Below, one piece after another: positions 27,638 through 40,185 of a stretch of DNA of 64,000 nt; the stretch's first letter is position 1; every line of letters starts with the position of its first letter. Below the pieces are notes generated by a model. That model was given only the letters and a program-made list of their open reading frames with translations. It made no database searches and was not told the DNA's origin. Both the position numbers and the translations under genes were made by a program. This DNA comes from Nitrospiria bacterium (GTDB taxonomy: Bacteria > Nitrospirota > UBA9217), in the NCBI GenBank assembly GCA_919902495.1, contig CAKKRC010000018.1, positions 126,580-190,579 of the forward strand, given 5' to 3'.

Positions 27638-27817
27638 CGCGACCGTCAATAAATACGCGGTTCATTTGTTTTGTATGGTATTGTACTGCTGGTACAGTGG
27701 AAAAAGGGAGGTGAAAGCGTTCCCGCAAAAGACTGTTTAACAAGCTTGAGAAGTTCGGAGTTGGTTGTATCAACATCAGATACGCACTTTATCATACACG
27801 GAAAGGGGAGATTCACA

Positions 27818-29041
27818 ATGAAAAAGCTTGCAGGCTTTATCGCAGTTGTAGTTGTTGTGCTGTTCGGTTATCTGGCCTTCACCACGATGTCGTCGACAGA
27901 TGCCGTTGCAGCCGCCGCAAAGAAGAAGGCAGAGGCCACGAAGGCTGCGCCGGCAGCAGCGCCCGCGGCTCCCGCGGCGCCCGTAGCGAAGACCTATTCG
28001 GCCACGATCTATGTGGCGGGCATGGGCGGGCATTATGCACAGGCCGACGTCGTCGTCGACCCGAGCAATGCCAACGAGCCGGTGAAGATCTCGAAGCTGG
28101 ACCGCCTGTCCATCAATCCTGCCGGCGTCGACGGCAAGCAGTATGCCACCCATGACGCCCGCATCGATGCCAACGACCGGAACATCATGTTCTGGTCCAC
28201 CTATGTACCCGACGCGAACAAGAAGATGCATGTCGGCAAGTCCGACCTCAAGACCGGCAAGGTCCTTGTGGACGTGGCCATGACCCCGGACCCGAAGGCC
28301 CCGGCCGAAAAGGCGCCGACCTACTGCGCCTCCGGCCAGAGCAAGAACTTCTTCATGCCCGTGTTCATGGGAACGGAAGGCTATGTGGACGTGCTCGACA
28401 AGAAGGACCTGTCGCTGAAGCACCGCCTCTGGATGAGCTCCCTCGGCTACGTCAAGGGCTCCTACAAGTTCACGCACGGCACCAATTCGCCCGACATGAA
28501 GACCTTCGTTCTGGCAGTGAACCAGGCCAAGGAAGGGAAGGGCACCGGCGACATCGACTTCATCCTCGTGGATCTCGCCGAGATGGAGAAGGGCAATCTC
28601 AAGCAGCTTGCCAAGAACACGCTGAAGGGCGAGCCTGACAAGACCATCACCTTCCGGCAGTATTTCAGCAACGACGGCAAGTTCATCATGCAGTCGGCCG
28701 GCGACCGCCTCTGGGTGCTCGACGCCACGACCTTGAAGATGGTTGACGAGAAGATGATGCCCCCGGGAAACCAGCTCCACGACGCCCAGAACACCCCGGA
28801 CGACAAGGTCGCGCTCCTGACCGTGCGCACGGTCACGGCCGGCTGCGATGTGGAAGGAAAGCCGCTTGTGAAGGAAGGCAAGGGCGTGGACATCACCGAC
28901 GGTACGGTCATGTTCTATGACTTCAGCGCCAAGAAGCTGAGCGACAAGCAGGTGTCGGTCTGCCTCGGCTGCCACAAGGGCATGGGCCTCGGCGACAAGA
29001 ACGCCGTCCTCTGCGGCATCGATTCGAACTACAAGAAGTAA
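27818..29041 (+). CDS. Periplasmic beta-propeller protein with one C-terminal c-type heme motif
   Basis: The 407-residue product has an N-terminal membrane anchor or signal (about 5-25), an Ala/Pro/Lys-rich linker (35-63), then propeller-like blades with the recurring H...(S/N)PD.K pattern (THGTNSPDMKTFVLA, YFSNDGKFIMQSA, LHDAQNTPDDKVALL). A single heme motif, Cys382-LG-Cys385-His386, follows near the end. Such a protein would move electrons or sense redox state outside the cytoplasm. I recognise no named family. AAAGGGGAG precedes the ATG at 27818. A strong terminator follows. Confidence 0.75.
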   Translation: MKKLAGFIAVVVVVLFGYLAFTTMSSTDAVAAAAKKKAEATKAAPAAAPAAPAAPVAKTYSATIYVAGMGGHYAQADVVVDPSNANEPVKISKLDRLSINPAGVDGKQYATHDARIDANDRNIMFWSTYVPDANKKMHVGKSDLKTGKVLVDVAMTPDPKAPAEKAPTYCASGQSKNFFMPVFMGTEGYVDVLDKKDLSLKHRLWMSSLGYVKGSYKFTHGTNSPDMKTFVLAVNQAKEGKGTGDIDFILVDLAEMEKGNLKQLAKNTLKGEPDKTITFRQYFSNDGKFIMQSAGDRLWVLDATTLKMVDEKMMPPGNQLHDAQNTPDDKVALLTVRTVTAGCDVEGKPLVKEGKGVDITDGTVMFYDFSAKKLSDKQVSVCLGCHKGMGLGDKNAVLCGIDSNYKK

Positions 29042-29148: not shown

Positions 29149-29218
29149 ACGGATGTCTCAGCGAAAGGCACCAGATCACTTATTACATAGAGAAAGATCT
29201 ACGAGAACCGCTCAATTC

Positions 29219-30406
29219 ATGCCGACCCTCTTTTCCTTTGCCTTCAAGAACATAAAACGGAAACCCCTGCGCACCGGAATCCTGATGTTCGCCATCGCGC
29301 TCCTGGTGTCCGCCCTCGTCTTCTCCCTCTCCTTCGTGCAGCGCGTGAACGGCAGCATCAACAAGGCCTCGGAGCGTCTCGGCGCCGACCTGCTCATCGT
29401 TCCGACCAATGCGCGCGGCGCGGCCGAAGAGGTCCTGCTTGAGAACAAGATCAAGTCGTTCTACATGGACGCCAGGCTCATCGACCGGATCAAGGTCGTC
29501 GAGGGGATCGACAAGGTCACGGAGCAGATCTATCTTGTCACCATGTCCACCATGTGCTGCTCTGTGCCCGAGGCCATGGTGATCGCCTTTAACCAGGACA
29601 CGGACTTCATCATCACGCCGTGGCTCAGGGAAAAGCTCAAGCACAGGCTGGAGAAAGGCGAGGCGGTCGCCGGCACGGAATCCTCTTTTAATATCCGGCT
29701 GGGCCTCGTGGAAGTGGACAGCATGCTCTTCGGTAATGTGTTCCGCATCGTGGGGACCATGGACCCGACCGGCACCGGACTGGACAACGCCGTGTTCATC
29801 ACGCTGGAGAACATGGAGAGGATCGTGAAAAGCGGCAAGGCAAAGGTGAAGCCCGGGGAGATCTCGGTGATCTTCGCGAAGGTCAAGCCCGGCATCGATC
29901 CCTCGGCGGTGGCCATGCGGATCGAGAACTCGATCATCGATGTCGATGTGATGGCGCGGAAGGACATCGGCAAGAACATCCTTTCGACGCTGGGTGACAT
30001 GAGCAGGATCTTCATGATGACCATCGTTCTGGCGTCGGTTATGGCCTTCTTCCTCGTCTGGGCGATCTTCACGGCCATTGCCAACGAGCGCTCCAAGGAA
30101 GTGGGCATCATGCGGGCACTGGGGGCCAAGGAACAGCACATCCTCAGGATATTCCTTATCGAGGTGCTCGTCATCGGGTGCGCAGGGAGCATCCTCGGCA
30201 TCGTGGCAGGCACCGCGCTGTCCACGCTGGTCGCGACGACCTTTTCCATCGTCAAGCAGCTTTCCACGGACCTCTCGTTCCTGGAGCGGTCCGCGATCGC
30301 GGTGGTGAGCTTTCTGGGCGGGACCGCCATCTGCGTCTTCGGCGCACTGGGGCCGATACAGCGGCTCAAGAAGATGGAGCCTCTAATGGTCATCAAGGTG
30401 GAGTAA
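29219..30406 (+). CDS. MacB/FtsX-like ABC transporter permease
   Basis: The 395-residue permease has a first transmembrane helix near 20-40, a large periplasmic MacB-type domain (about 45-255) and three C-terminal helices (near 275, 325 and 360), the FtsX topology. Two adjacent Cys (TMCCSVPEA) lie in the periplasmic part. Such permeases drive mechanotransmission or lipoprotein/peptide export with a LolD-like ATPase, encoded two bases downstream. The substrate is unknown. No accessory membrane-fusion protein is adjacent. Confidence 0.9.
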   Translation: MPTLFSFAFKNIKRKPLRTGILMFAIALLVSALVFSLSFVQRVNGSINKASERLGADLLIVPTNARGAAEEVLLENKIKSFYMDARLIDRIKVVEGIDKVTEQIYLVTMSTMCCSVPEAMVIAFNQDTDFIITPWLREKLKHRLEKGEAVAGTESSFNIRLGLVEVDSMLFGNVFRIVGTMDPTGTGLDNAVFITLENMERIVKSGKAKVKPGEISVIFAKVKPGIDPSAVAMRIENSIIDVDVMARKDIGKNILSTLGDMSRIFMMTIVLASVMAFFLVWAIFTAIANERSKEVGIMRALGAKEQHILRIFLIEVLVIGCAGSILGIVAGTALSTLVATTFSIVKQLSTDLSFLERSAIAVVSFLGGTAICVFGALGPIQRLKKMEPLMVIKVE

Positions 30407-30408
30407 GC

Positions 30409-31089
30409 ATGAGCCAGGTCGTGATCGATGTCGTATCGAAGGACTACCGGGTGGCGAACGAGACCATCGCAGCGGTCCGCAACGCTTCCCTCATCGTCGA
30501 GCGGAGTAAGTTCGTCTCCATTGTGGGCCATTCGGGCTCAGGCAAGACGACGCTCCTCTCGCTCATCGGCGGAATGGTCTCTCCGACATCGGGCCGGGTG
30601 CTGTTCAACGGCGAGGACATCTACACCTGGACCAGCGACCGGCTTTCGGAGTACCGGTGCGAGAAGATCGGGTTTATGTTCCAGTCCGCGAGCCTGCTTC
30701 CGATCCTGACGGCAAAAGAGAACCTCATGCTCCCCGTCGCGTTCCGATCACAGCGGACACCCGACGGCGGACACGAGCAGAAGGCGGAAGATCTCCTCCA
30801 TTCGGTCGGGCTCAGCGACAAGATCAATGCCTATCCCGCCCAGCTTTCAGGCGGCCAGCAGCGCCGCGTGGCCATCGCCCGGGCCTTCATGAACGACCCC
30901 GAGCTCATCCTCGCCGACGAGCCCACCGGCGACCTCGACGAAGAGACGGAGAACGAGATGATGCAGTTCTTTCTCCGGATGAACAAAGAGCACGGCACCA
31001 CCGTCATCATGGTCACGCACAACTCGGACCTTGCGCGACAGACCCAGCAGCATTTCCGGATGGACCGCGGCGTGATCTCTCACGTTTGA
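30409..31089 (+). CDS. LolD/MacB-type ABC transporter ATP-binding protein
   Basis: The 226-residue ATPase has the Walker A GHSGSGKTT, Q-loop MFQSASLLP, signature LSGGQQRRVA, Walker B LILADEPT and H-loop VTH. It pairs with the permease immediately upstream (two bases between stop and start). Confidence 0.95.
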   Translation: MSQVVIDVVSKDYRVANETIAAVRNASLIVERSKFVSIVGHSGSGKTTLLSLIGGMVSPTSGRVLFNGEDIYTWTSDRLSEYRCEKIGFMFQSASLLPILTAKENLMLPVAFRSQRTPDGGHEQKAEDLLHSVGLSDKINAYPAQLSGGQQRRVAIARAFMNDPELILADEPTGDLDEETENEMMQFFLRMNKEHGTTVIMVTHNSDLARQTQQHFRMDRGVISHV

Positions 31090-31514: not shown

Positions 31515-32564
31515 ATGAAAATGAGCATGAAGTACGAGGTTGACGTTGAGCAGGAAGCGCTTTGGTCTGTCGGAGAAGAGCAGGAAAAATACACGCTTAT
31601 CCTCGGGCAGGCCATCGAGCGTTACGTTGAGGAGCTGAGAACCATAGAACGGCGCATCGCAAGCGGTGAGATCGAGGAGGATGCCGTTCTCAGGGAGATC
31701 GTGGCCCTGAACGATGCCATTCTCAAGATCTGTGCGCAGTTCGAGCAGGAAGTAAAAGATGAAACAGTAATAAAGGCCACCCGTTCCTATTTCCGCAAAC
31801 GGACCCACACCATCCTTTCCAAGAGTTACGCCATCAACCGGATCCGGACCTGGCCTCAGGGCTACCAGGGCGACCATCTTACCCTGGAGGCCGCATACAG
31901 GAACACCCCGATGTCCGACGGTATCGGATACTATCTGGATAAATATATCCTCGACTGGCAGCTGGCGCACGCCCTCCGCGGGAGGCTTGAGCGGTTGACT
32001 GCGCTTCTCCACGATGAGCTCTCCACCCGACAAAACCCGAAGGTACTGGATATTGCCTGCGGTTCCTGTCGAGAGGTTTCGATGCTGGTCCCGGAGATCA
32101 AACAATCGAAAGCGCAGTTCACCTGCGTCGACCTTGACGGCGACGCCCTGGATTTCGCGTTGAACCGTCTTGCGCCCGCGGACCTTGCGCCTGAGCAGGT
32201 CAAGTTGATCAAGTACAACGCCCTCCGGATGTTCGATATCGACATTGCCAAGGCAGAATTCGGGCATCAGGACATCATCTACAGTGTGGGTTATTTCGAC
32301 TATCTCCCCGATGATTTTCTGGTGAAAATGCTGAGCTCTTTGTACGCGCTGCTGAACCCGGGCGGGAAGCTCATTGCCGCGTTCAAAGATGCGGACCAGT
32401 ACCGGTCCCAGGAGTACCACTGGATCGCCGATTGGGACGGGTTTCGGCAGCGGACCGTGAAGGACTTCGAGCGGATCCTCGGCGAAGCGGGCATCCCCGC
32501 GCAGGCCATGACCATGACGCGCGACAGGTCCGGCATAATCGTTTTCTATTCTGCGACGAAGTGA
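31515..32564 (+). CDS. SAM-dependent methyltransferase with helical N-terminal region
   Basis: The 349-residue protein has a charged helical N-terminus (about 1-100), then a class I methyltransferase core with motif I VLDIACGSCREV (near 175-186), an acidic motif CVDLDGDALDFA and a motif IV-like IIYSVGYFDYL. The fold is clear; the acceptor is not. GGGAGGACGT precedes the ATG. It stands upstream of the ketoreductase/ketosynthase genes on the same strand but is separated from them by about 120 bases, so membership in that pathway is only a possibility. Confidence 0.82.
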   Translation: MKMSMKYEVDVEQEALWSVGEEQEKYTLILGQAIERYVEELRTIERRIASGEIEEDAVLREIVALNDAILKICAQFEQEVKDETVIKATRSYFRKRTHTILSKSYAINRIRTWPQGYQGDHLTLEAAYRNTPMSDGIGYYLDKYILDWQLAHALRGRLERLTALLHDELSTRQNPKVLDIACGSCREVSMLVPEIKQSKAQFTCVDLDGDALDFALNRLAPADLAPEQVKLIKYNALRMFDIDIAKAEFGHQDIIYSVGYFDYLPDDFLVKMLSSLYALLNPGGKLIAAFKDADQYRSQEYHWIADWDGFRQRTVKDFERILGEAGIPAQAMTMTRDRSGIIVFYSATK

Positions 32565-32683
32565 TGCTCCATTCGGATAGCATTTAGCGAACGGAACTGA
32601 TGTCTCTGTAAACGCAGGGGTTCAGGTTTTGTCGTTCAAGCACTTTGTTGACGCGGATCATCCGCCGTCGCCGGGGGGGCGTA

Positions 32684-33436
32684 TTGGAAGAATATCAACT
32701 TCGCGACAAGGTTGCTATCGTCACGGGCGGCTCACGGGGCATAGGACGCGCTGTCGTCCTTGCCTTGGCAAGGCAGGGCGCTTACTGCGCCTTCACCTAT
32801 TCGTCGCACCGGGAAGCCGCTGAGACCCTGGCGGCCGAGGTCCGGGAGGTGGGCCGCCGGGCGCTCCCGATACGGCTCGATGTCCGGGATTTTGACGGCG
32901 CGAAGGCGATGATCGAGCAGGTCAAAAGCGAGTTTGGCAGGCTCGATATCCTTGTCAATAACGCAGGGATCACGCGCGACAGGTCGCTGATGGGTATGAG
33001 CAGGGAGGACTGGGGCGACGTCATCGACACCGATCTCACGGGCGTCTTCAATACGACCCGCGCCTGCATCATCACCTTTCTCAAGCAGAAAAGCGGGCAG
33101 ATCGTGAATGTTTCTTCGGTCAGCGGCATCAGGCCCATGGCGGGCCAGGTGAACTATGCAGCAGCCAAGGCCGGGGTCATCGGCTTCACAAAATCGCTGG
33201 CAAAAGAGGTGGCACCGTACAACATCCGGGTGAATGCGGTCGCTCCCGGCTTCATCGAAACGGATATGACGTCGCAGCTGGGGGAAAAATTCCGTGAAAA
33301 GGCGGTCGAGCAGATCCCGCTGGGGCGGTTCGGCACGGCTGAGGAGGTTGCGCAGTCGGTGCTTTTTTTGCTGAGCGACACATCACATTATATTACCGGA
33401 CAGGTCCTCCAAGTCGACGGCGGTCTGGGGATGTAG
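32684..33436 (+). CDS. Short-chain dehydrogenase, 3-oxoacyl-[ACP] reductase type
   Basis: The 250-residue SDR has the NADP(H) motif TGGSRGIGR, NNAG, and the catalytic Ser-Tyr-Lys set in VSSVSGIRPM and NYAAAKAG, with FabG-like end YITGQVLQVDGGLGM. It reduces beta-ketoacyl-ACP. The start is uncertain: I chose TTG at 32684 (MEEYQLRDKVAIV) because a G-rich ribosome binding site lies five bases upstream and this gives FabG length; a TTG at 32645 would add 13 residues. It is the first of six closely spaced genes with ACP, two ketosynthase homologues and a dehydratase. Confidence 0.88.
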   Translation: MEEYQLRDKVAIVTGGSRGIGRAVVLALARQGAYCAFTYSSHREAAETLAAEVREVGRRALPIRLDVRDFDGAKAMIEQVKSEFGRLDILVNNAGITRDRSLMGMSREDWGDVIDTDLTGVFNTTRACIITFLKQKSGQIVNVSSVSGIRPMAGQVNYAAAKAGVIGFTKSLAKEVAPYNIRVNAVAPGFIETDMTSQLGEKFREKAVEQIPLGRFGTAEEVAQSVLFLLSDTSHYITGQVLQVDGGLGM

Positions 33437-33443
33437 AGGGGCC

Positions 33444-34679
33444 ATGAAAGGCAGAGCGGTCATAACGGGGATCGGCGTCCTCTCGTCCATCGGGAAGGGG
33501 AGGGACGCATACTGGAAGGCGCTGCAAAGGGGTGCGACCGGCGTCCGTCCGATCACGCTCTTTGATGCGGCTCCGTTCCGTGTAAAGTCCGCCGGCGAGA
33601 TAGCCGATTTCGAAGCGCTTGCATATCTGGGAAAAAAGGGCCTCCGGGACCTTGACCGAAGTACGCGGCTCGTCTGTTCCGCGGCCAAGCTCGCGCTTGA
33701 CGACAGCGGGTTGGCCATTTCAGACGAGATGTCACGGTCCGTCGGAGTTGCCATCGGCACGACCTTCGGAAGTCTCCACAGCATCGCGCAGTTCGACCGG
33801 TCCGGTCTGACCGAAGGTCCGCGGTTCGTCAATCCGTCGCACTTCCCGAACACGGTCATCAACTCACCGGCAAGCCAGGTCTCCATCCGGTTCACCATCA
33901 AGGGCTTTAACACAACGCTGTCCACGGGTTTTTGCGCAGGCCTCGATGCCCTGTCCTATGCGGCGGATTTCATCCGGCTCGGAAGGGCCGATGCGGTCCT
34001 CGCGGGCGGCGTCGAAGAACTGTGCGAAGAGACCTATCGCTTGTTCCACGATCTCGGCTATCTTTCCGGCATGAGCGGAGCCGAGCCGGTCAGTCGTCCC
34101 TTTGATGCCGGTCGGGACGGGTTCGTCCTGTCCGAGGGATCGGCGGTGCTTGTTGCGGAGAATGAGGAGTATGCCCGGAGCCGGGGCGCGGACATCCTGG
34201 CCGTGATCCTGGGCTGCGGCAATGCATTTGATCCGGAAGCGGACAGTACGTTTGAACGGGCGGGACGGGGGCTGAAAACGGCCATCGCGCAGGCGCTCGA
34301 GGAGGCGTGTGTCCGGCCAAAAGACGTCGGGTATGTCTGCTCCTGCGCCAATGGAATGCCGGGACTGGACCGGATGGAGGCACGGATCCTCCATGAGGTG
34401 TTTGGTGAAGATGCGCGGCACGTGCCCGTGAGTTCGATCAAATCAATGATAGGGGAAACATACTCCGCTTCAGGCGCTCTCGCGGTGGCAGCGGCGGTTG
34501 GGGGCCTCCGGCAGGGATTCATCCCTCCTACGGTGAACCACCGGCAGACCGACACCCTCTGCGCCCTCGACATCGTGCCGAATGCAGCGCGTGCGCAAGC
34601 GGTGAAAACGGTGCTTGTTACCGCAGCAGACCCGTACGGACAAAATTCAGCCCTCGTGGTGGGCGGGTACAACAGGTGA
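33444..34679 (+). CDS. Degenerate ketosynthase (KS-beta/chain-length-factor-like)
   Basis: The 411-residue protein is a full-length KAS II-type thiolase-fold protein, but aligning it with the intact ketosynthase two genes downstream shows that all three catalytic residues are gone. The nucleophilic Cys is Phe163 (STGFCAG against STACAAG, with a Cys shifted by one), the first His is Cys301 (CSCANG against SAHGTG) and the second is Glu338 (MIGETY against MLGHTM). This is the pattern of the non-catalytic KS-beta subunit of type II polyketide and aryl-polyene synthases, which heterodimerises with an active KS. That role is inference. Confidence 0.85.
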   Translation: MKGRAVITGIGVLSSIGKGRDAYWKALQRGATGVRPITLFDAAPFRVKSAGEIADFEALAYLGKKGLRDLDRSTRLVCSAAKLALDDSGLAISDEMSRSVGVAIGTTFGSLHSIAQFDRSGLTEGPRFVNPSHFPNTVINSPASQVSIRFTIKGFNTTLSTGFCAGLDALSYAADFIRLGRADAVLAGGVEELCEETYRLFHDLGYLSGMSGAEPVSRPFDAGRDGFVLSEGSAVLVAENEEYARSRGADILAVILGCGNAFDPEADSTFERAGRGLKTAIAQALEEACVRPKDVGYVCSCANGMPGLDRMEARILHEVFGEDARHVPVSSIKSMIGETYSASGALAVAAAVGGLRQGFIPPTVNHRQTDTLCALDIVPNAARAQAVKTVLVTAADPYGQNSALVVGGYNR

Positions 34680-34682
34680 CGC

Positions 34683-35123
34683 ATGCAGCTCGACTTTGAA
34701 GAGATAAAGAAGCTCATTCCCCAGCGGTTTCCTTTCATTATGCTCGACCGGATCATCGAGTTGGAGCCGGGCAAGCGCGCGGTGGCGATCAAGAACGTCT
34801 CGGGGAACGACATTTTCTTTCTCGGTCACTTCCCGGAAAAGGCCGTCATGCCCGGCGCGACCATCATCGAGGCCATGGCACAGGCGGCCATTGTCCTCTT
34901 TGCCTCCGCTAAACAGGAAGGCGCGGGAAAGACCATGCCGCAGTATCTCTTCGGGTCGGTCAAGGCCCGCTTTCTCCATCCCGTTACCCCGGGAGATCAG
35001 ATCAGGATAACCGTGGAAAGCGTCAAGTCCCTGCCGACCGGAGCCTACGTGTCGGGCGAGGCCGCTGTCGGCGGGACGAAGGTCGCGGAGGCGGAACTGG
35101 TGTTCAGTGTGAAGCATGAATGA
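34683..35123 (+). CDS. FabZ-like hot-dog beta-hydroxyacyl-ACP dehydratase
   Basis: The 146-residue protein has the FabZ catalytic arrangement: His49 in FFLGHFPEK and Glu63 in MPGATIIEAMAQAA. It would dehydrate beta-hydroxyacyl-ACP to the trans-2-enoyl product. The N-terminus (IKKLIPQRFPFIMLDRI) is typical. It starts three bases after the degenerate ketosynthase stop and overlaps the next ketosynthase by eight bases, indicating translational coupling. Confidence 0.92.
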   Translation: MQLDFEEIKKLIPQRFPFIMLDRIIELEPGKRAVAIKNVSGNDIFFLGHFPEKAVMPGATIIEAMAQAAIVLFASAKQEGAGKTMPQYLFGSVKARFLHPVTPGDQIRITVESVKSLPTGAYVSGEAAVGGTKVAEAELVFSVKHE

Positions 35124-36345
35124 TCGCGTCGTCATAACGGGACTGGGGGTCGTCTCATCCATCGGCATCGGATGGGAGGAGTTCTGGAAGAATCTCCTGG
35201 CAGGAAGATCGGGGATCAGCCCGGTATCGTCCTTTGATACGACAAACCATTTCACGCACAACGGCGGCGAAGTGCGAAATTTCAGGGCGGAGGATTTCAT
35301 CCCGGCGGAGCGGCTGCCGTTCATGAACCGCGCGACCCAAATGGCCGTGGCCTCGGCAAAACTTGCGTGGGAAGATGCCGGCCTCACGGCCGGGGACGCA
35401 GCCGACCATACGGTCGGCGTTTCGCATGGCACGACACTGGGCGCCGCCCAGGCGATCGAAGAAGTTGACTCGCTGCTTATCCAGAAGCAGGAACTGAGAA
35501 AAGGACTGCTCTACCAGATGCCGCCGCACACAGCGCCATCCGCCGTCGCCAGGGAGTTCAACTGCCATGGTCCGAATTTCATGTTTTCCACCGCATGCGC
35601 CGCGGGTAACTATGCCATCGCGTATGCCTATGACCTCATCAGAATGAAGCGGGCGGATATCGTGCTTGCGGGGGCATCTGACGCGGTTTCCCGGATCGAG
35701 TATACCGGTTTCAATCAATTCAAAGCAGTTGCGCCGGAAAAATGTCAGCCTTTCGATAAAAACAGAAAAGGAATGATCCCGGGGGAAGGCGCAGGGATGC
35801 TCATTATTGAGTCGTTGGGGTCTGCCGTCAGGAGAAAGGCCGCTATCTATGCCGAGATAGGCGGCTATGGCCTCAGCTGTGATGCCCACCATATGACGAC
35901 AGCCACGGTTGAGGGTATAGCCGCGTGTATGAACAAGGCGCTGCTCGAAGCCGGGATCGGGAAGGAAGAGGTATCGTACATCAGCGCACACGGTACCGGT
36001 ACTGTTGCGAACGATAAGATAGAGTGCGCTTCGATCAAAGAGGTCTTTGGTCCGCTGTACAAAGGGATTCCGGTAAGCTCTATAAAATCCATGCTGGGAC
36101 ACACCATGGGGGCGGCATCGGCACTTGAGGCCATTGCCTGTGCCCTGATCGTCCGGCATGACACGATTCCTCCCACGATCAACTATGAGTCACCGGACCC
36201 GGAATGCGATATTGACTGCGTGCCGAACGTGGCCCGAAAGCAGACGGTCGACGTAGCTCTCAATAATTCGTATGCTTTCGGAGGCAACAACGCCTCGCTG
36301 GTCATAAAAAATTTCGCAGGAAAAAAGGAGAGAGGACTTGATTGA
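35116..36345 (+). CDS. Beta-ketoacyl-[ACP] synthase, FabF-like, catalytically intact
   Basis: The 409-residue condensing enzyme keeps the full Cys-His-His triad: Cys161 (FSTACAAG), His292 (ISAHGTGT) and His329 (SMLGHTMGA). It catalyses decarboxylative Claisen condensation of malonyl-ACP with an acyl chain. Start and stop overlap the neighbouring dehydratase and ACP genes by eight bases each. Its partner is probably the degenerate ketosynthase at 33444, making an alpha/beta pair. Confidence 0.93.
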   Translation: MNDRVVITGLGVVSSIGIGWEEFWKNLLAGRSGISPVSSFDTTNHFTHNGGEVRNFRAEDFIPAERLPFMNRATQMAVASAKLAWEDAGLTAGDAADHTVGVSHGTTLGAAQAIEEVDSLLIQKQELRKGLLYQMPPHTAPSAVAREFNCHGPNFMFSTACAAGNYAIAYAYDLIRMKRADIVLAGASDAVSRIEYTGFNQFKAVAPEKCQPFDKNRKGMIPGEGAGMLIIESLGSAVRRKAAIYAEIGGYGLSCDAHHMTTATVEGIAACMNKALLEAGIGKEEVSYISAHGTGTVANDKIECASIKEVFGPLYKGIPVSSIKSMLGHTMGAASALEAIACALIVRHDTIPPTINYESPDPECDIDCVPNVARKQTVDVALNNSYAFGGNNASLVIKNFAGKKERGLD

Positions 36346-36589
36346 AAACATCGAGAAGGACATCATTGCGATCATTTCGGAAGTCTCAGGCTACGAGCCT
36401 GAGGAGATAACTCCGGAGACTGACTTTTTCAAAGACCTGGAGGTCGATTCGATCAAGGCCATAGAGATCACCGTCGCGATCGAGAAAAAGTTCAAAATAT
36501 CGGTTCGGGACGAGGATGTACCGAAAATTGCAACAGTGAAACAGGCTGTTGATCTAATCAGCAATTTACTAGAGAACAAAAAGATCTGA
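36338..36589 (+). CDS. Acyl carrier protein
   Basis: The 83-residue helical protein has the phosphopantetheine site Ser38 in DLEVDSIKAIEI and an acidic profile. It differs from housekeeping AcpP, whose motif is usually GADSLDTVEL, so it is likely pathway-specific. Translation starts at TTG, overlapping the ketosynthase stop, with AGGAGAGGA just upstream. The gene is noticeably more AT-rich than the ketosynthases. Confidence 0.92.
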   Translation: MIENIEKDIIAIISEVSGYEPEEITPETDFFKDLEVDSIKAIEITVAIEKKFKISVRDEDVPKIATVKQAVDLISNLLENKKI

Positions 36590-36590
36590 A

Positions 36591-38024
36591 ATGGAAAAGC
36601 CCGATAAAGATGCGTACGATGCTATTATCATAGGCGCGGGCATGAGCGGATTGGTGTGCGGGTGTTATCTTGCGAAGGCCGGGTTAAAGGTTCTTATGGC
36701 CGAACAACACCATAAGCCGGGAGGATACTGTACATCCTTCCGAAGAGGACGCTTTACGTTTGACGCCGCGGCCCATTCATTTGGAGGGTATGCGCATGGA
36801 AATCTCGGAAAGATTTTTAAAGACCTTGGGATAGATAATAAAATAAATATCAAGCAGCATGATCCTTCAAATGTCATCACGTCGCCGGACCATACGGTTT
36901 CTTTTTGGGCTGACATAGATAAAACGATAGATGTTTTTCAGTCCGTCTTTCCGAAGGATGCCGATAATATAAAAAGATTCTTTAATTTTCTAACAGAGCC
37001 CGATTCTATGTCCTTTGCCCGTATAAGGAGCTGGACGTTCAAGGATTTGCTGGATAAGTATTTTACCAATGACCGGATACAGGCAATGCTCTCTTTTCCT
37101 CTCTATGGTAATGGTGCATTGCCACCGTCACGTATGTCCGCCTTCATTGGAGCAAGGATCTTCAAAGAATTTCTTCTTGATGGAGGGTACCATCCGGCAG
37201 GCGGGATGCAGGTCTTATCTGATGCCCTGGCAGCGATATTCAAAGAGGCTGGCGGCGATCTGCGGTTGTCCACAGCGGTTAAAAAGATCACGACAAAAAA
37301 TAGCGAGGTTTCAGGAGTCGTGTTGGAAAAAGGCGGGTTTGTACCATCGCTCTATGTGATATCTAACTCTGATGCACGCCGGACTTTTTTAACGTTGTTA
37401 GGAAAAAACAACGTTGAGCAGGATCTTAAAGACAGAATGGCCCGCATGGTTCCTTCCTTGTCGACATTCATTGTATACTTAGGCGTGGACCAAGCTGCAA
37501 CAACGTTGCCTGTTTCAGGTGTAAATTATTGGTATCTATCTCAGTACGATCTGTCGACCGCCTATCTTTCGGCAAAGAAGGGTGATTTTCGAGATATGGG
37601 AAGATACCTGGTACATGTATCACCTGATCGATCAACGGTCATTGCCTTTATGAATGCCCCTTATGGAAGCAAGAGATATTGGGAAACAAACAGAATAGTG
37701 CTTTCTGATAGATTAATCAAGGCTGTTGAAGCGAATACCATTCCCGGGTTGTCAAAATATATTGTTTACAAGGAAACCGCAACGCCGCGCACGTTGCAGC
37801 GGTACACGTTAAATCATGCGGGGTCAGCTTATGGATGGGAAAGCACTCCATTCCAATTGGCGGACCCAGACTTTCGGAAACCTTCTTTTATACGAGGTCT
37901 TTACTTAACTGGACATTGGACAACTCATGGCCTCGGTATTCCTGGTGTTGCCTACGTAGGTTATGATACCGCCAGGATGGTGCTGAGAAAAAAAACACAT
38001 AATTGCCAAAAAATGTTAAATTAA
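36591..38024 (+). CDS. CrtI/phytoene-desaturase-like FAD-dependent oxidoreductase
   Basis: The 477-residue flavoprotein has an N-terminal dinucleotide-binding motif (IIIGAGMSGLVCGCYLAKAG, then a Glu at the end of strand 2 and HKPGGYCTSFRRGRFTFD) and a C-terminal FAD-contact region (GLYLTGHWTTHGLGIPGVAYVG), as in carotenoid desaturases and retinol saturase-like enzymes. It could desaturate, saturate or isomerise a polyene chain. The gene begins two bases after the ACP stop and is AT-rich relative to the first genes of the cluster. Confidence 0.87.
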   Translation: MEKPDKDAYDAIIIGAGMSGLVCGCYLAKAGLKVLMAEQHHKPGGYCTSFRRGRFTFDAAAHSFGGYAHGNLGKIFKDLGIDNKINIKQHDPSNVITSPDHTVSFWADIDKTIDVFQSVFPKDADNIKRFFNFLTEPDSMSFARIRSWTFKDLLDKYFTNDRIQAMLSFPLYGNGALPPSRMSAFIGARIFKEFLLDGGYHPAGGMQVLSDALAAIFKEAGGDLRLSTAVKKITTKNSEVSGVVLEKGGFVPSLYVISNSDARRTFLTLLGKNNVEQDLKDRMARMVPSLSTFIVYLGVDQAATTLPVSGVNYWYLSQYDLSTAYLSAKKGDFRDMGRYLVHVSPDRSTVIAFMNAPYGSKRYWETNRIVLSDRLIKAVEANTIPGLSKYIVYKETATPRTLQRYTLNHAGSAYGWESTPFQLADPDFRKPSFIRGLYLTGHWTTHGLGIPGVAYVGYDTARMVLRKKTHNCQKMLN

Positions 38025-38028
38025 TACC

Positions 38029-40185
38029 ATGGTAAAACGAGAAGAATTCATTCAGCGGGAGCTTGTTGCCTTGCTCCGCACCTACCTGCCAATTCTCCTT
38101 TTTGCCGGCGCTGTGGTAGACATGTCTCTGATCATCCTGGATTATTTTGTTGTGCCGGAAAAGGTAGGATTATTTGCAGTCTATAGATCTGCGGCCGCAA
38201 TCATTACGCTTTTTCTCGCTACTTTTGCCAAATTCAAGAAAAACATTTCATATCGCTTATCCCTTTTTGTTCTGCTTTTGGCAACGGTGGTCACCGCTAC
38301 AATGATAGAACTGATGATTTTGCAATTCGGTGGCCATCAATCACTATATTATGCAGGTTTCATGATTTTGATGATCTTTGTTTTTGGTTTTTTGCCAGTT
38401 TCAATCAAGATAACGCTTCTGATCAATTGTACTATTTATCTCATCTATATTCTGCCAATACTCATTTTCGACAACATAACTGAAAGCAGAATTTTTATTA
38501 GCAATAACATTTTTCTCATGGCTGCAGCATTCGGCAGTCTTGCATGGCGATATATAAACCAAAATCTCATTATCAATAAATTATCCCTCCAATTTGCCCT
38601 CGAAGAGCAGAAGAAGCACCTTGAGATCTATTCCCTCCAGCTGCAATCCATGGTCGACGACAGGACCAAGGAGCTGAGCAAATCCAACAAGTGGCACCAG
38701 GCGCTGTTCGAGAACGCGACCGACGGCATCGTGGTCCTCGACCGGAACGGGATCATCGTGAACGCGAACGAACGGGCGTGCGAGATGCACGGTTTCAGCA
38801 AGGAAGCGCTGGTCGGTTCACACAGCAGCCTGCTGGAAGTGGACGAGAACCGGAGCGCCGCGGCAGAGCGCCTGCAAAAGCTGCTTCAGGGCGAGTCCCT
38901 CGTATATGAAGCGGTCCATTTTAAAAAGAACGGCAGCCGTATTTCCCTCGAGGTGAGCTCCCGGGCGATCCCCATTCATGACGAAGTGTTCATCCAGTCC
39001 TTCCAGCGGGATATCACCGAGAAAAAGAAGATCCAGGAACATCTCTTCCAATCGCAGAAAATGGATTCCATCGGCATGCTGGCCGGGGGGATCGCTCACG
39101 ACTTCAACAATGTTCTGACGGCCATCCTGGGATACACGGACCTGATACGCCGGGACGTGGGGGCGAACGAAAAGGTGCTCGGCAGGCTAAGCGTCATCGA
39201 GAATGCCGCGCGGAAGGCCGGCCGCATGGTCGCCCAGCTCCTGGGCTTCTCCCGGAAGAGCGAGATCGAGCTGGTACCCTTCAATATCAACGATGTTGTG
39301 AACGACACGATCAAGCTGCTCGAGCGGGTGATCGACAAACGGATCGTTGTCCGGCTGCAACTCGCGGAACACCTTCCGATGGTCAATGGCGACATGAATA
39401 AGATCGAACAGGTGATGATGAACTTCATTGTCAATGCCCGGGATGCCATGCCCTACGGCGGCATCATCACCGTTACCTCGACCGCCATCGATGCCCATCC
39501 CGGAGTGGCCGGCGTACCGCCATACATTCCCGCGGGCAGGTACGTGGTGCTTTCGGTCGCCGATACCGGCGTCGGGATCCCCGAGGAGATCCAGCGAAAG
39601 ATCTTCGAGCCCTTCTATACGACCAAAGAGCGGGGCAAGGGAACAGGCCTGGGCCTCGCTATGGTCTACGGCGTTGTCACCGAGCACAAGGGCTTCGTCA
39701 CCGTCCAGAGCAAGGTCAACCAAGGCTCGACCTTCACCGTCTACCTTCCGGTGTCCGCCACGGCGACGGCGGTCAAGAAACATGCTGTCCTGTCGGTTCA
39801 CGGAAGCGAGACGATCCTGCTGGTGGATGACGATGAGAGCGTTCTGAACTACCTCAAGGCGGAGCTGGAAAAGAACGGCTACAAGGTCATTGCGACGACC
39901 AATCCCATGAGCGCGATCGACGCCTACAGCAAGATGTACAGGGAGATAGCGCTTGTCATTACCGATGTTGTCATGCCGCTGATCGACGGGAGAGAGCTGA
40001 TGAAACGCATTGCCGAGATACATCCGAAGGCCCGTTTCCTGACCATCTCGGCATACAGCCGGCACAGCGAACAGGGCGACGATATAACGCCGGACATCTT
40101 CCTGCAGAAGCCTTTCGACGCGCATGACGTGCTCTCCGCGGTCAGGCGGATCCTCGATGGCGAAAAGAAGTTGCAGGCTAAATAA
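38029..40185 (+). CDS. Hybrid sensor histidine kinase (membrane sensor, PAS, HisKA, HATPase, receiver)
   Basis: The 718-residue protein has about six transmembrane segments (roughly 15-185), a short coiled coil, a PAS domain (about 225-340; FENATDGIVVLDRNG), a HisKA box with His357 (GGIAHDFNNVLTAILGY), an ATPase domain (VADTGVGIPEE, GTGLGLAMVYG) and a C-terminal receiver with phosphoacceptor Asp646 (ITDVVMP). The transmembrane part is AT-rich, while everything after about 38590 is GC-rich, so the gene looks like a fusion of two sources. It starts four bases after the CrtI-like gene and may regulate the cluster. Confidence 0.9.
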   Translation: MVKREEFIQRELVALLRTYLPILLFAGAVVDMSLIILDYFVVPEKVGLFAVYRSAAAIITLFLATFAKFKKNISYRLSLFVLLLATVVTATMIELMILQFGGHQSLYYAGFMILMIFVFGFLPVSIKITLLINCTIYLIYILPILIFDNITESRIFISNNIFLMAAAFGSLAWRYINQNLIINKLSLQFALEEQKKHLEIYSLQLQSMVDDRTKELSKSNKWHQALFENATDGIVVLDRNGIIVNANERACEMHGFSKEALVGSHSSLLEVDENRSAAAERLQKLLQGESLVYEAVHFKKNGSRISLEVSSRAIPIHDEVFIQSFQRDITEKKKIQEHLFQSQKMDSIGMLAGGIAHDFNNVLTAILGYTDLIRRDVGANEKVLGRLSVIENAARKAGRMVAQLLGFSRKSEIELVPFNINDVVNDTIKLLERVIDKRIVVRLQLAEHLPMVNGDMNKIEQVMMNFIVNARDAMPYGGIITVTSTAIDAHPGVAGVPPYIPAGRYVVLSVADTGVGIPEEIQRKIFEPFYTTKERGKGTGLGLAMVYGVVTEHKGFVTVQSKVNQGSTFTVYLPVSATATAVKKHAVLSVHGSETILLVDDDESVLNYLKAELEKNGYKVIATTNPMSAIDAYSKMYREIALVITDVVMPLIDGRELMKRIAEIHPKARFLTISAYSRHSEQGDDITPDIFLQKPFDAHDVLSAVRRILDGEKKLQAK

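Follow-up and report, generated by a model that had tools for sequence, protein, structure and literature searches.

A Nitrospirota ketosynthase operon that may build an acyl chain and sense its own product

What does a compact ketosynthase cluster make when one of its two ketosynthases has lost its catalytic residues, and why should such a cluster end in a sensor kinase? The question is raised by a 64,000-nucleotide stretch (the window) of the draft genome of a subsurface Nitrospirota bacterium (3.67 Mb, 97% complete; G000), positions 126,580 to 190,579 of contig CAKKRC010000018.1 in assembly GCA_919902495.1. An earlier note on the window described six tightly coupled genes, encoding a FabG-type ketoreductase, a ketosynthase homologue (KSβ), a FabZ-type dehydratase, a second ketosynthase (KSα), an acyl carrier protein (ACP) and a CrtI-like flavoprotein. 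All six are present, and their coordinates, spacings (7, 3, −8, −8 and 1 bp) and Pfam and NCBIfam identities hold, but the proposed extent was too short: a methyltransferase (MT) upstream and a hybrid histidine kinase (HK) downstream belong to the set as well, giving an operon of eight forward-strand genes from 31515 to 40185, with MT first and HK last. We find that the CrtI-like protein and the membrane sensor of the kinase vary together against a conserved background, and propose, with a probability that we put at roughly 0.6, that the operon assembles an acyl chain and most likely also senses the completed molecule.

The CrtI–sensor block

The CrtI-like protein (36591 to 38024) is a flavin adenine dinucleotide (FAD) oxidoreductase that falls in the TIGR02734 superfamily below its cut-off and forms a sequence group of its own, with homologues in Nitrospirota, Omnitrophota and anammox bacteria. 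The kinase gene (38029 to 40185) starts 4 bp past its end and encodes, by Pfam matches and hydrophobic segments, an N-terminal membrane sensor (about residues 8–185) followed by PAS, kinase and receiver domains. The genomes compared across Nitrospirota are drafts and metagenome-assembled genomes (MAGs), among them that of a congener, Nitrospirae DeMMO3_8 (G001, a MAG), whose cluster matches that of the window at about 88% DNA identity, apart from one block of roughly 1.8 kb (36774 to 38587). This block runs from about codon 61 of the CrtI-like gene, past the FAD motif, to about codon 186 of the kinase gene; within it, identity falls to 0.47–0.69 and synonymous divergence (dS), 0.2–0.6 outside, reaches 1.3 or saturates. 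Both values recover once the PAS/kinase part begins.

Three congeneric pairs show a hyperdivergent CrtI-like protein and kinase sensor together with conserved ketosynthase genes and a conserved kinase catalytic part, and in all three the block ends near a common domain boundary with reading frames kept. In G009 and G012, where these genes lie on one contig, the C-terminal part of HK has a dS of 0.08 (95% amino-acid identity), while the CrtI-like proteins are 44% and the sensors 37–40% identical with dS saturated; KSβ and ACP also show raised dS here (0.71 and 0.51), so a longer exchanged stretch is possible in this pair. Between G166 and G180, identity is 0.83 for KSβ and 0.92 for the kinase versus 0.43 for the CrtI-like protein and 0.47 for the sensor, an amino-acid contrast only, since silent sites in the flanking genes are near saturation too.

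In a set of 16 clusters, the identity of the sensor co-varies with that of the CrtI-like protein given that of KSβ (partial r = 0.45, permutation p = 0.001), and the controls give 0.04 for the sensor and its own kinase domain, −0.17 for the sensor and KSα, and 0.05 for the kinase and the CrtI-like protein. A first run of this test used 15 clusters; the repeat added two, dropped one with an unreadable sensor, and included eight control comparisons. The nearest genome agrees between the CrtI-like protein and the sensor in 10 of the 16 cases, often across genus lines: both proteins of G001 are closest to those of G012 although its congener is G000, and those of G156 are closest to those of G008 although its congener is G107. 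The CrtI-like enzyme and the kinase sensor domain have apparently been exchanged as a unit.

The hypervariable region of the staphylococcal agr locus (PMC12312760) resembles this arrangement in that a signal-maturing enzyme and the sensor part of a kinase co-vary between conserved flanks; the agr signal, however, is a peptide and the proteins are unrelated, whereas the window product is a predicted acyl compound. Co-variation of a maturing enzyme with a sensor against a conserved background, a feature of polymorphic signal–receptor systems, is found here. The block suggests a product-sensing kinase, whose membrane sensor domain would recognize the product, and in that case different CrtI alleles would need different sensors.

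The ketosynthase pair and its relatives

The earlier note read KSβ (33444 to 34679) as having lost all three catalytic residues and KSα (35116 to 36345) as intact, and alignment bears out both statements. In KSβ, F163, C301 and E338 align with the catalytic Cys-His-His columns and K333 is conserved, while KSα retains C161, H292 and H329 plus K324. Of the KSβ rows surveyed, 74 can be read at these three positions and three more are truncated or gapped there; all 74 likewise lack the catalytic Cys and first His, have Glu or Asp in place of the second His, and retain the Lys. We infer that KSβ is catalytically dead. In the ketosynthase tree, in which two Streptomyces proteins served as chain-length factor (CLF) references and Iga12, ApeC and the Escherichia coli aryl-polyene proteins were left out, KSβ sequences are monophyletic (support 1.0) and join CLFs (0.90) and not FabF, so the test for an active FabF is negative. 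KSα joins the ishigamide ketosynthase Iga11, with a support of 0.998 for the wider group. These results support a type II KS–CLF reading of the pair, and with it the logic of one active and one inactive partner that had been proposed. The E. coli CFT073 region examined for ApeC and ApeO did not contain the aryl-polyene cluster. As in the highly reducing type II polyketide synthase of ishigamide (Iga11–Iga12), ketoreductase, dehydratase, KS–CLF and ACP are separate proteins; the charged Asp113 of Iga11, in contrast, aligns with Leu in the window KSα, and the host, the CrtI-like protein and the kinase differ as well.

A scan of named genomes finds KSβ relatives in Nitrospirota, Omnitrophota, anammox Planctomycetes and one Acidobacteria contig. 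Within the phylum Nitrospirota, KSβ occurs in 25 of 246 genomes and KSα in 21, every one of them among those 25; none of the 221 KSβ-negative genomes carries KSα, which is thus never found alone (Fisher p = 1e-26, without correction for relatedness). The two genes lie on a single contig within 2.6 kb in 18 of the 21 pairs, and this comparison shows that KSα and KSβ are inherited together. Pairwise dN/dS against the congener is 0.11–0.18 for KSβ, FabZ, KSα and ACP, and purifying selection extends over the cluster genes (0.11–0.24); these low ratios and the co-occurrence place the gene set beyond chance. The KS–CLF pair itself is not new, since such pairs have been catalogued in Nitrospirae, Omnitrophica and Planctomycetes (PMC10132072) and many phyla, Omnitrophota among them, are reported to hold ladderane-type clusters (PMC9902471). 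A different adjacent ketosynthase pair, from a separate family, occurs in other Nitrospirota (L047:291-2734, L048:369-2857, L049:4579-7222); its second member lacks the catalytic Cys and lies near CLFs.

The remaining enzymes fit an acyl-chain module. FabG (32684 to 33436, TTG start) scores above the TIGR01830 cut-off and has the catalytic Tyr-Lys motifs, FabZ (34683 to 35123; PF07977/FabZ) has the catalytic His and Glu and best matches 7qv0_A in the PDB, and the dedicated ACP (36338 to 36589, TTG start; PF00550), with its Ser in a DSIK motif, best matches 7qv0_D and also matches 9s5i_E. The closest solved relatives of the pair are chains C (KSβ) and B (KSα; best PDB match, E = 8.5e-142) of 9s5h, deposited together, with an ACP in 9s5i; these chains share 94% identity with proteins of Ca. 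Brocadia pituitae, and 9s5h_C carries the pattern Val163, Asn298, Tyr300, Gly302, Lys328 and Glu333 published for Kuste3606 (PMC2649909). Their genes are the counterparts of kuste3603-3608. We cite this pair from sequence and deposition only, since a literature search found no paper on 9s5h or 9s5i and 9s5h is not among the fold matches listed for the KSβ model.

Sequence comparison places KSα and the degenerate KSβ in one pair family with the ladderane-candidate genes of anammox bacteria, and the operon is a diverged homologue of the kuste3603-3608 module, described as ranking second in expression among the candidate clusters (PMC4790861). Omnitrophota have the module as well. The ACP, FabZ, FabF, degenerate FabF and CrtI-like protein of that module all have homologues here (PMC2649909, PMC4790861), occurring together in the window cluster, and mean identity to the anammox proteins is 53% for KSα and 44% for KSβ. 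Gene order differs, however; the window operon adds FabG, MT and HK, its KSβ has Phe-Cys at the active site where the anammox proteins have Val-Thr, and it has no radical SAM gene. The earlier note had held that ladderane sets do not fit completely: its point that no radical SAM gene is adjacent stands, the B12-type gene included, but the homology to kuste3603-3608 had been overlooked. Radical SAM homologues in the host genome are at most 37% identical, and the best one, a reciprocal best hit, lies on another contig in an unrelated-looking neighbourhood.

Aryl-polyene clusters share a ketosynthase with a degenerate partner, ketoreductase, dehydratase and ACP, whereas the window operon lacks the ammonia lyase, ApeI/ApeP-type dehydratases and glycosyltransferase, a poor fit that had already been pointed out. 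All three are found on host contig C12 (L046, G000:C12:19001-39000), in a separate aryl-polyene cluster with an aromatic lyase and its own ketosynthases; because the host carries that cluster, an aryl-polyene identity for the operon is ruled out.

Gene order and the ends of the operon

A search of other genomes for the same gene order shows that the arrangement recurs in Nitrospirota as MT-(FabG)-KSβ-(FabZ)-KSα-ACP-CrtI-HK, with some clusters lacking FabG or FabZ. Nearly all clusters whose contigs reach that far have MT first and HK behind CrtI, and gaps of a few bp separate MT from FabG or KSβ in some. The ACP–HK interval varies: most clusters have CrtI there, L090 and L040 (G011) have a B12-type radical SAM gene plus CrtI, and L062 has no annotated CrtI. 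In L056 (5282-6607), a radical SAM gene occupies the usual place of CrtI between ACP and kinase. In a third congener, G002, the contig with KSβ ends early and CrtI was not found. Anammox clusters run ACP-FabZ-KSα-KSβ-CrtI, followed by a B12-type radical SAM gene. Omnitrophota clusters can carry a thioester-reductase-like (NAD_binding_4) gene between KSα and CrtI (L080:14807-15901), which suggests reductive release there. Just upstream of MT in the window, and likewise in the congener fragment L043, lie a MacB/FtsX-type ABC permease and ATPase (29153 to 31089), possibly export genes. The protein encoded at 27671 to 29041 has a C-terminal CxxCH motif, matches no Pfam family and is predicted to be secreted.

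The first gene of the operon, MT (31515 to 32564; Pfam Methyltransf_12/25), encodes an S-adenosylmethionine (SAM)-dependent methyltransferase that matches the methyltransferase of a phc-like Paraburkholderia locus (L162; hhalign E = 9e-16). There, a histidine kinase and two response regulators follow, resembling the phcBSRQ operon (PMC8578825), and this kinase has a membrane domain alignable with the one in the window kinase (31% identity over 172 residues, hhalign E = 2e-11). Orthologues of the window kinase match MASE8, a domain for which the host genome gave no clear match. These likenesses to Phc are leads, drawn from one phc-like Paraburkholderia locus. In the Phc quorum-sensing system of Ralstonia, the PhcB methyltransferase and the PhcS kinase follow signal type, whereas the regulators PhcR and PhcQ follow phylotype (PMC8578825), which resembles the sorting of CrtI and sensor versus kinase here, and the Paraburkholderia locus holds the related methyltransferase and kinase membrane domain side by side; the window MT and kinase, in contrast, flank a whole KS–CLF operon, and the kinase has PAS and receiver domains. 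Elsewhere in Nitrospirota, orthologues of MT (L054:7845-9194, L057:1093-2364 and others) have an N-terminal PilZ (c-di-GMP-type) domain, absent from the window MT. AmxMT1 (8hd2) was found as a relative of MT neither by sequence profile nor among the listed fold matches.

Signal, membrane sensor or hitchhiker

In the mechanism that we propose, a KSα/KSβ heterodimer would elongate a chain on the dedicated ACP, with FabG and FabZ reducing and dehydrating each round; because the operon has no enoyl reductase, double bonds would be left in the chain, and a polyene-type product is plausible. The CrtI-like flavoprotein would then set the final unsaturation or redox pattern, i.e., the chemotype, and MT may finish or release the product that the kinase sensor is thought to read. 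A diffusible signal is the more likely role, with an internal sensor of membrane lipids as the main alternative, although sequence alone does not tell the two apart. We tentatively suggest a so far undescribed class of bacterial chemical communication, in which an unsaturated acyl signal is the product of a type II KS–CLF operon akin to the ladderane-candidate genes, its chemotype is set by a CrtI-like enzyme that is hypervariable, the membrane sensor of the adjacent kinase is the matched receptor, and enzyme and sensor are exchanged as one cassette among Nitrospirota.

Several observations weigh against product sensing of this kind. Anammox clusters lack a kinase behind CrtI, an unbiased search with the sensor domain alone gave no plasmid match, and both product and ligand are predictions from the genes. 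The mosaic pattern is read from drafts and MAGs, breakpoints may be mere points where conserved sequence resumes, and the CrtI-like gene and the sensor adjoin, so that linkage alone would move both together.

The strongest rival, which we consider somewhat unlikely, is membrane-lipid homeostasis: the operon would make a membrane acyl chain that is polyunsaturated or otherwise unusual, a role already proposed in anammox bacteria and Desulfotalea, and the sensor would co-adapt with CrtI in the absence of any cell–cell signal because the kinase reads the state of the membrane from inside. Homology to the ladderane-candidate module, the membrane location of the sensor, and the C31:8 and C31:9 hydrocarbons made by D. 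psychrophila, which has syntenic clusters (PMC2649909), all favour it; exchange of matched enzyme and sensor alleles across genus lines, however, is better known from communication systems, and a PhcB-like methyltransferase has no obvious role there. It is improbable that the product is unrelated to the kinase and that the mosaic reflects recombination at anchors, a generally rapid evolution of both CrtI and sensor, or chimeras among the draft contigs. The quality of the genomes and the adjacency of the two genes allow for this, and the conserved FAD motif and sensor–PAS linker could act as anchors, but dS itself is raised within the block, unlike in fast protein change alone, the block ends near a shared domain boundary in three pairs with frames intact, and the sensor tracks CrtI and not its own adjacent kinase domain. 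That KSβ is an active FabF-like enzyme using a shifted Cys164 is very improbable, for although its AlphaFold model is a complete ketosynthase fold (pLDDT, the predicted local distance difference test, of 91) and Cys164 is present in every surveyed Nitrospirota KSβ, most homologues from Omnitrophota and anammox bacteria have Thr, Ser or Ala at this position, canonical FabF-like genes lie elsewhere in the host genome, and both the loss of the two His residues in all readable rows and the tree disfavour it.

The ladderane-candidate ketosynthase pair has so far been hard to study functionally because anammox bacteria grow slowly and pure cultures are lacking, and the operon described here is a compact version of that module in which the radical SAM gene is absent and a kinase may report on the product. 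If the kinase does read the product, it would hint at the chemistry and double as a biosensor for it; if the product leaves the cell, these genes would point to lipid-type communication in uncultured Nitrospirota, with matched alleles of enzyme and receptor.

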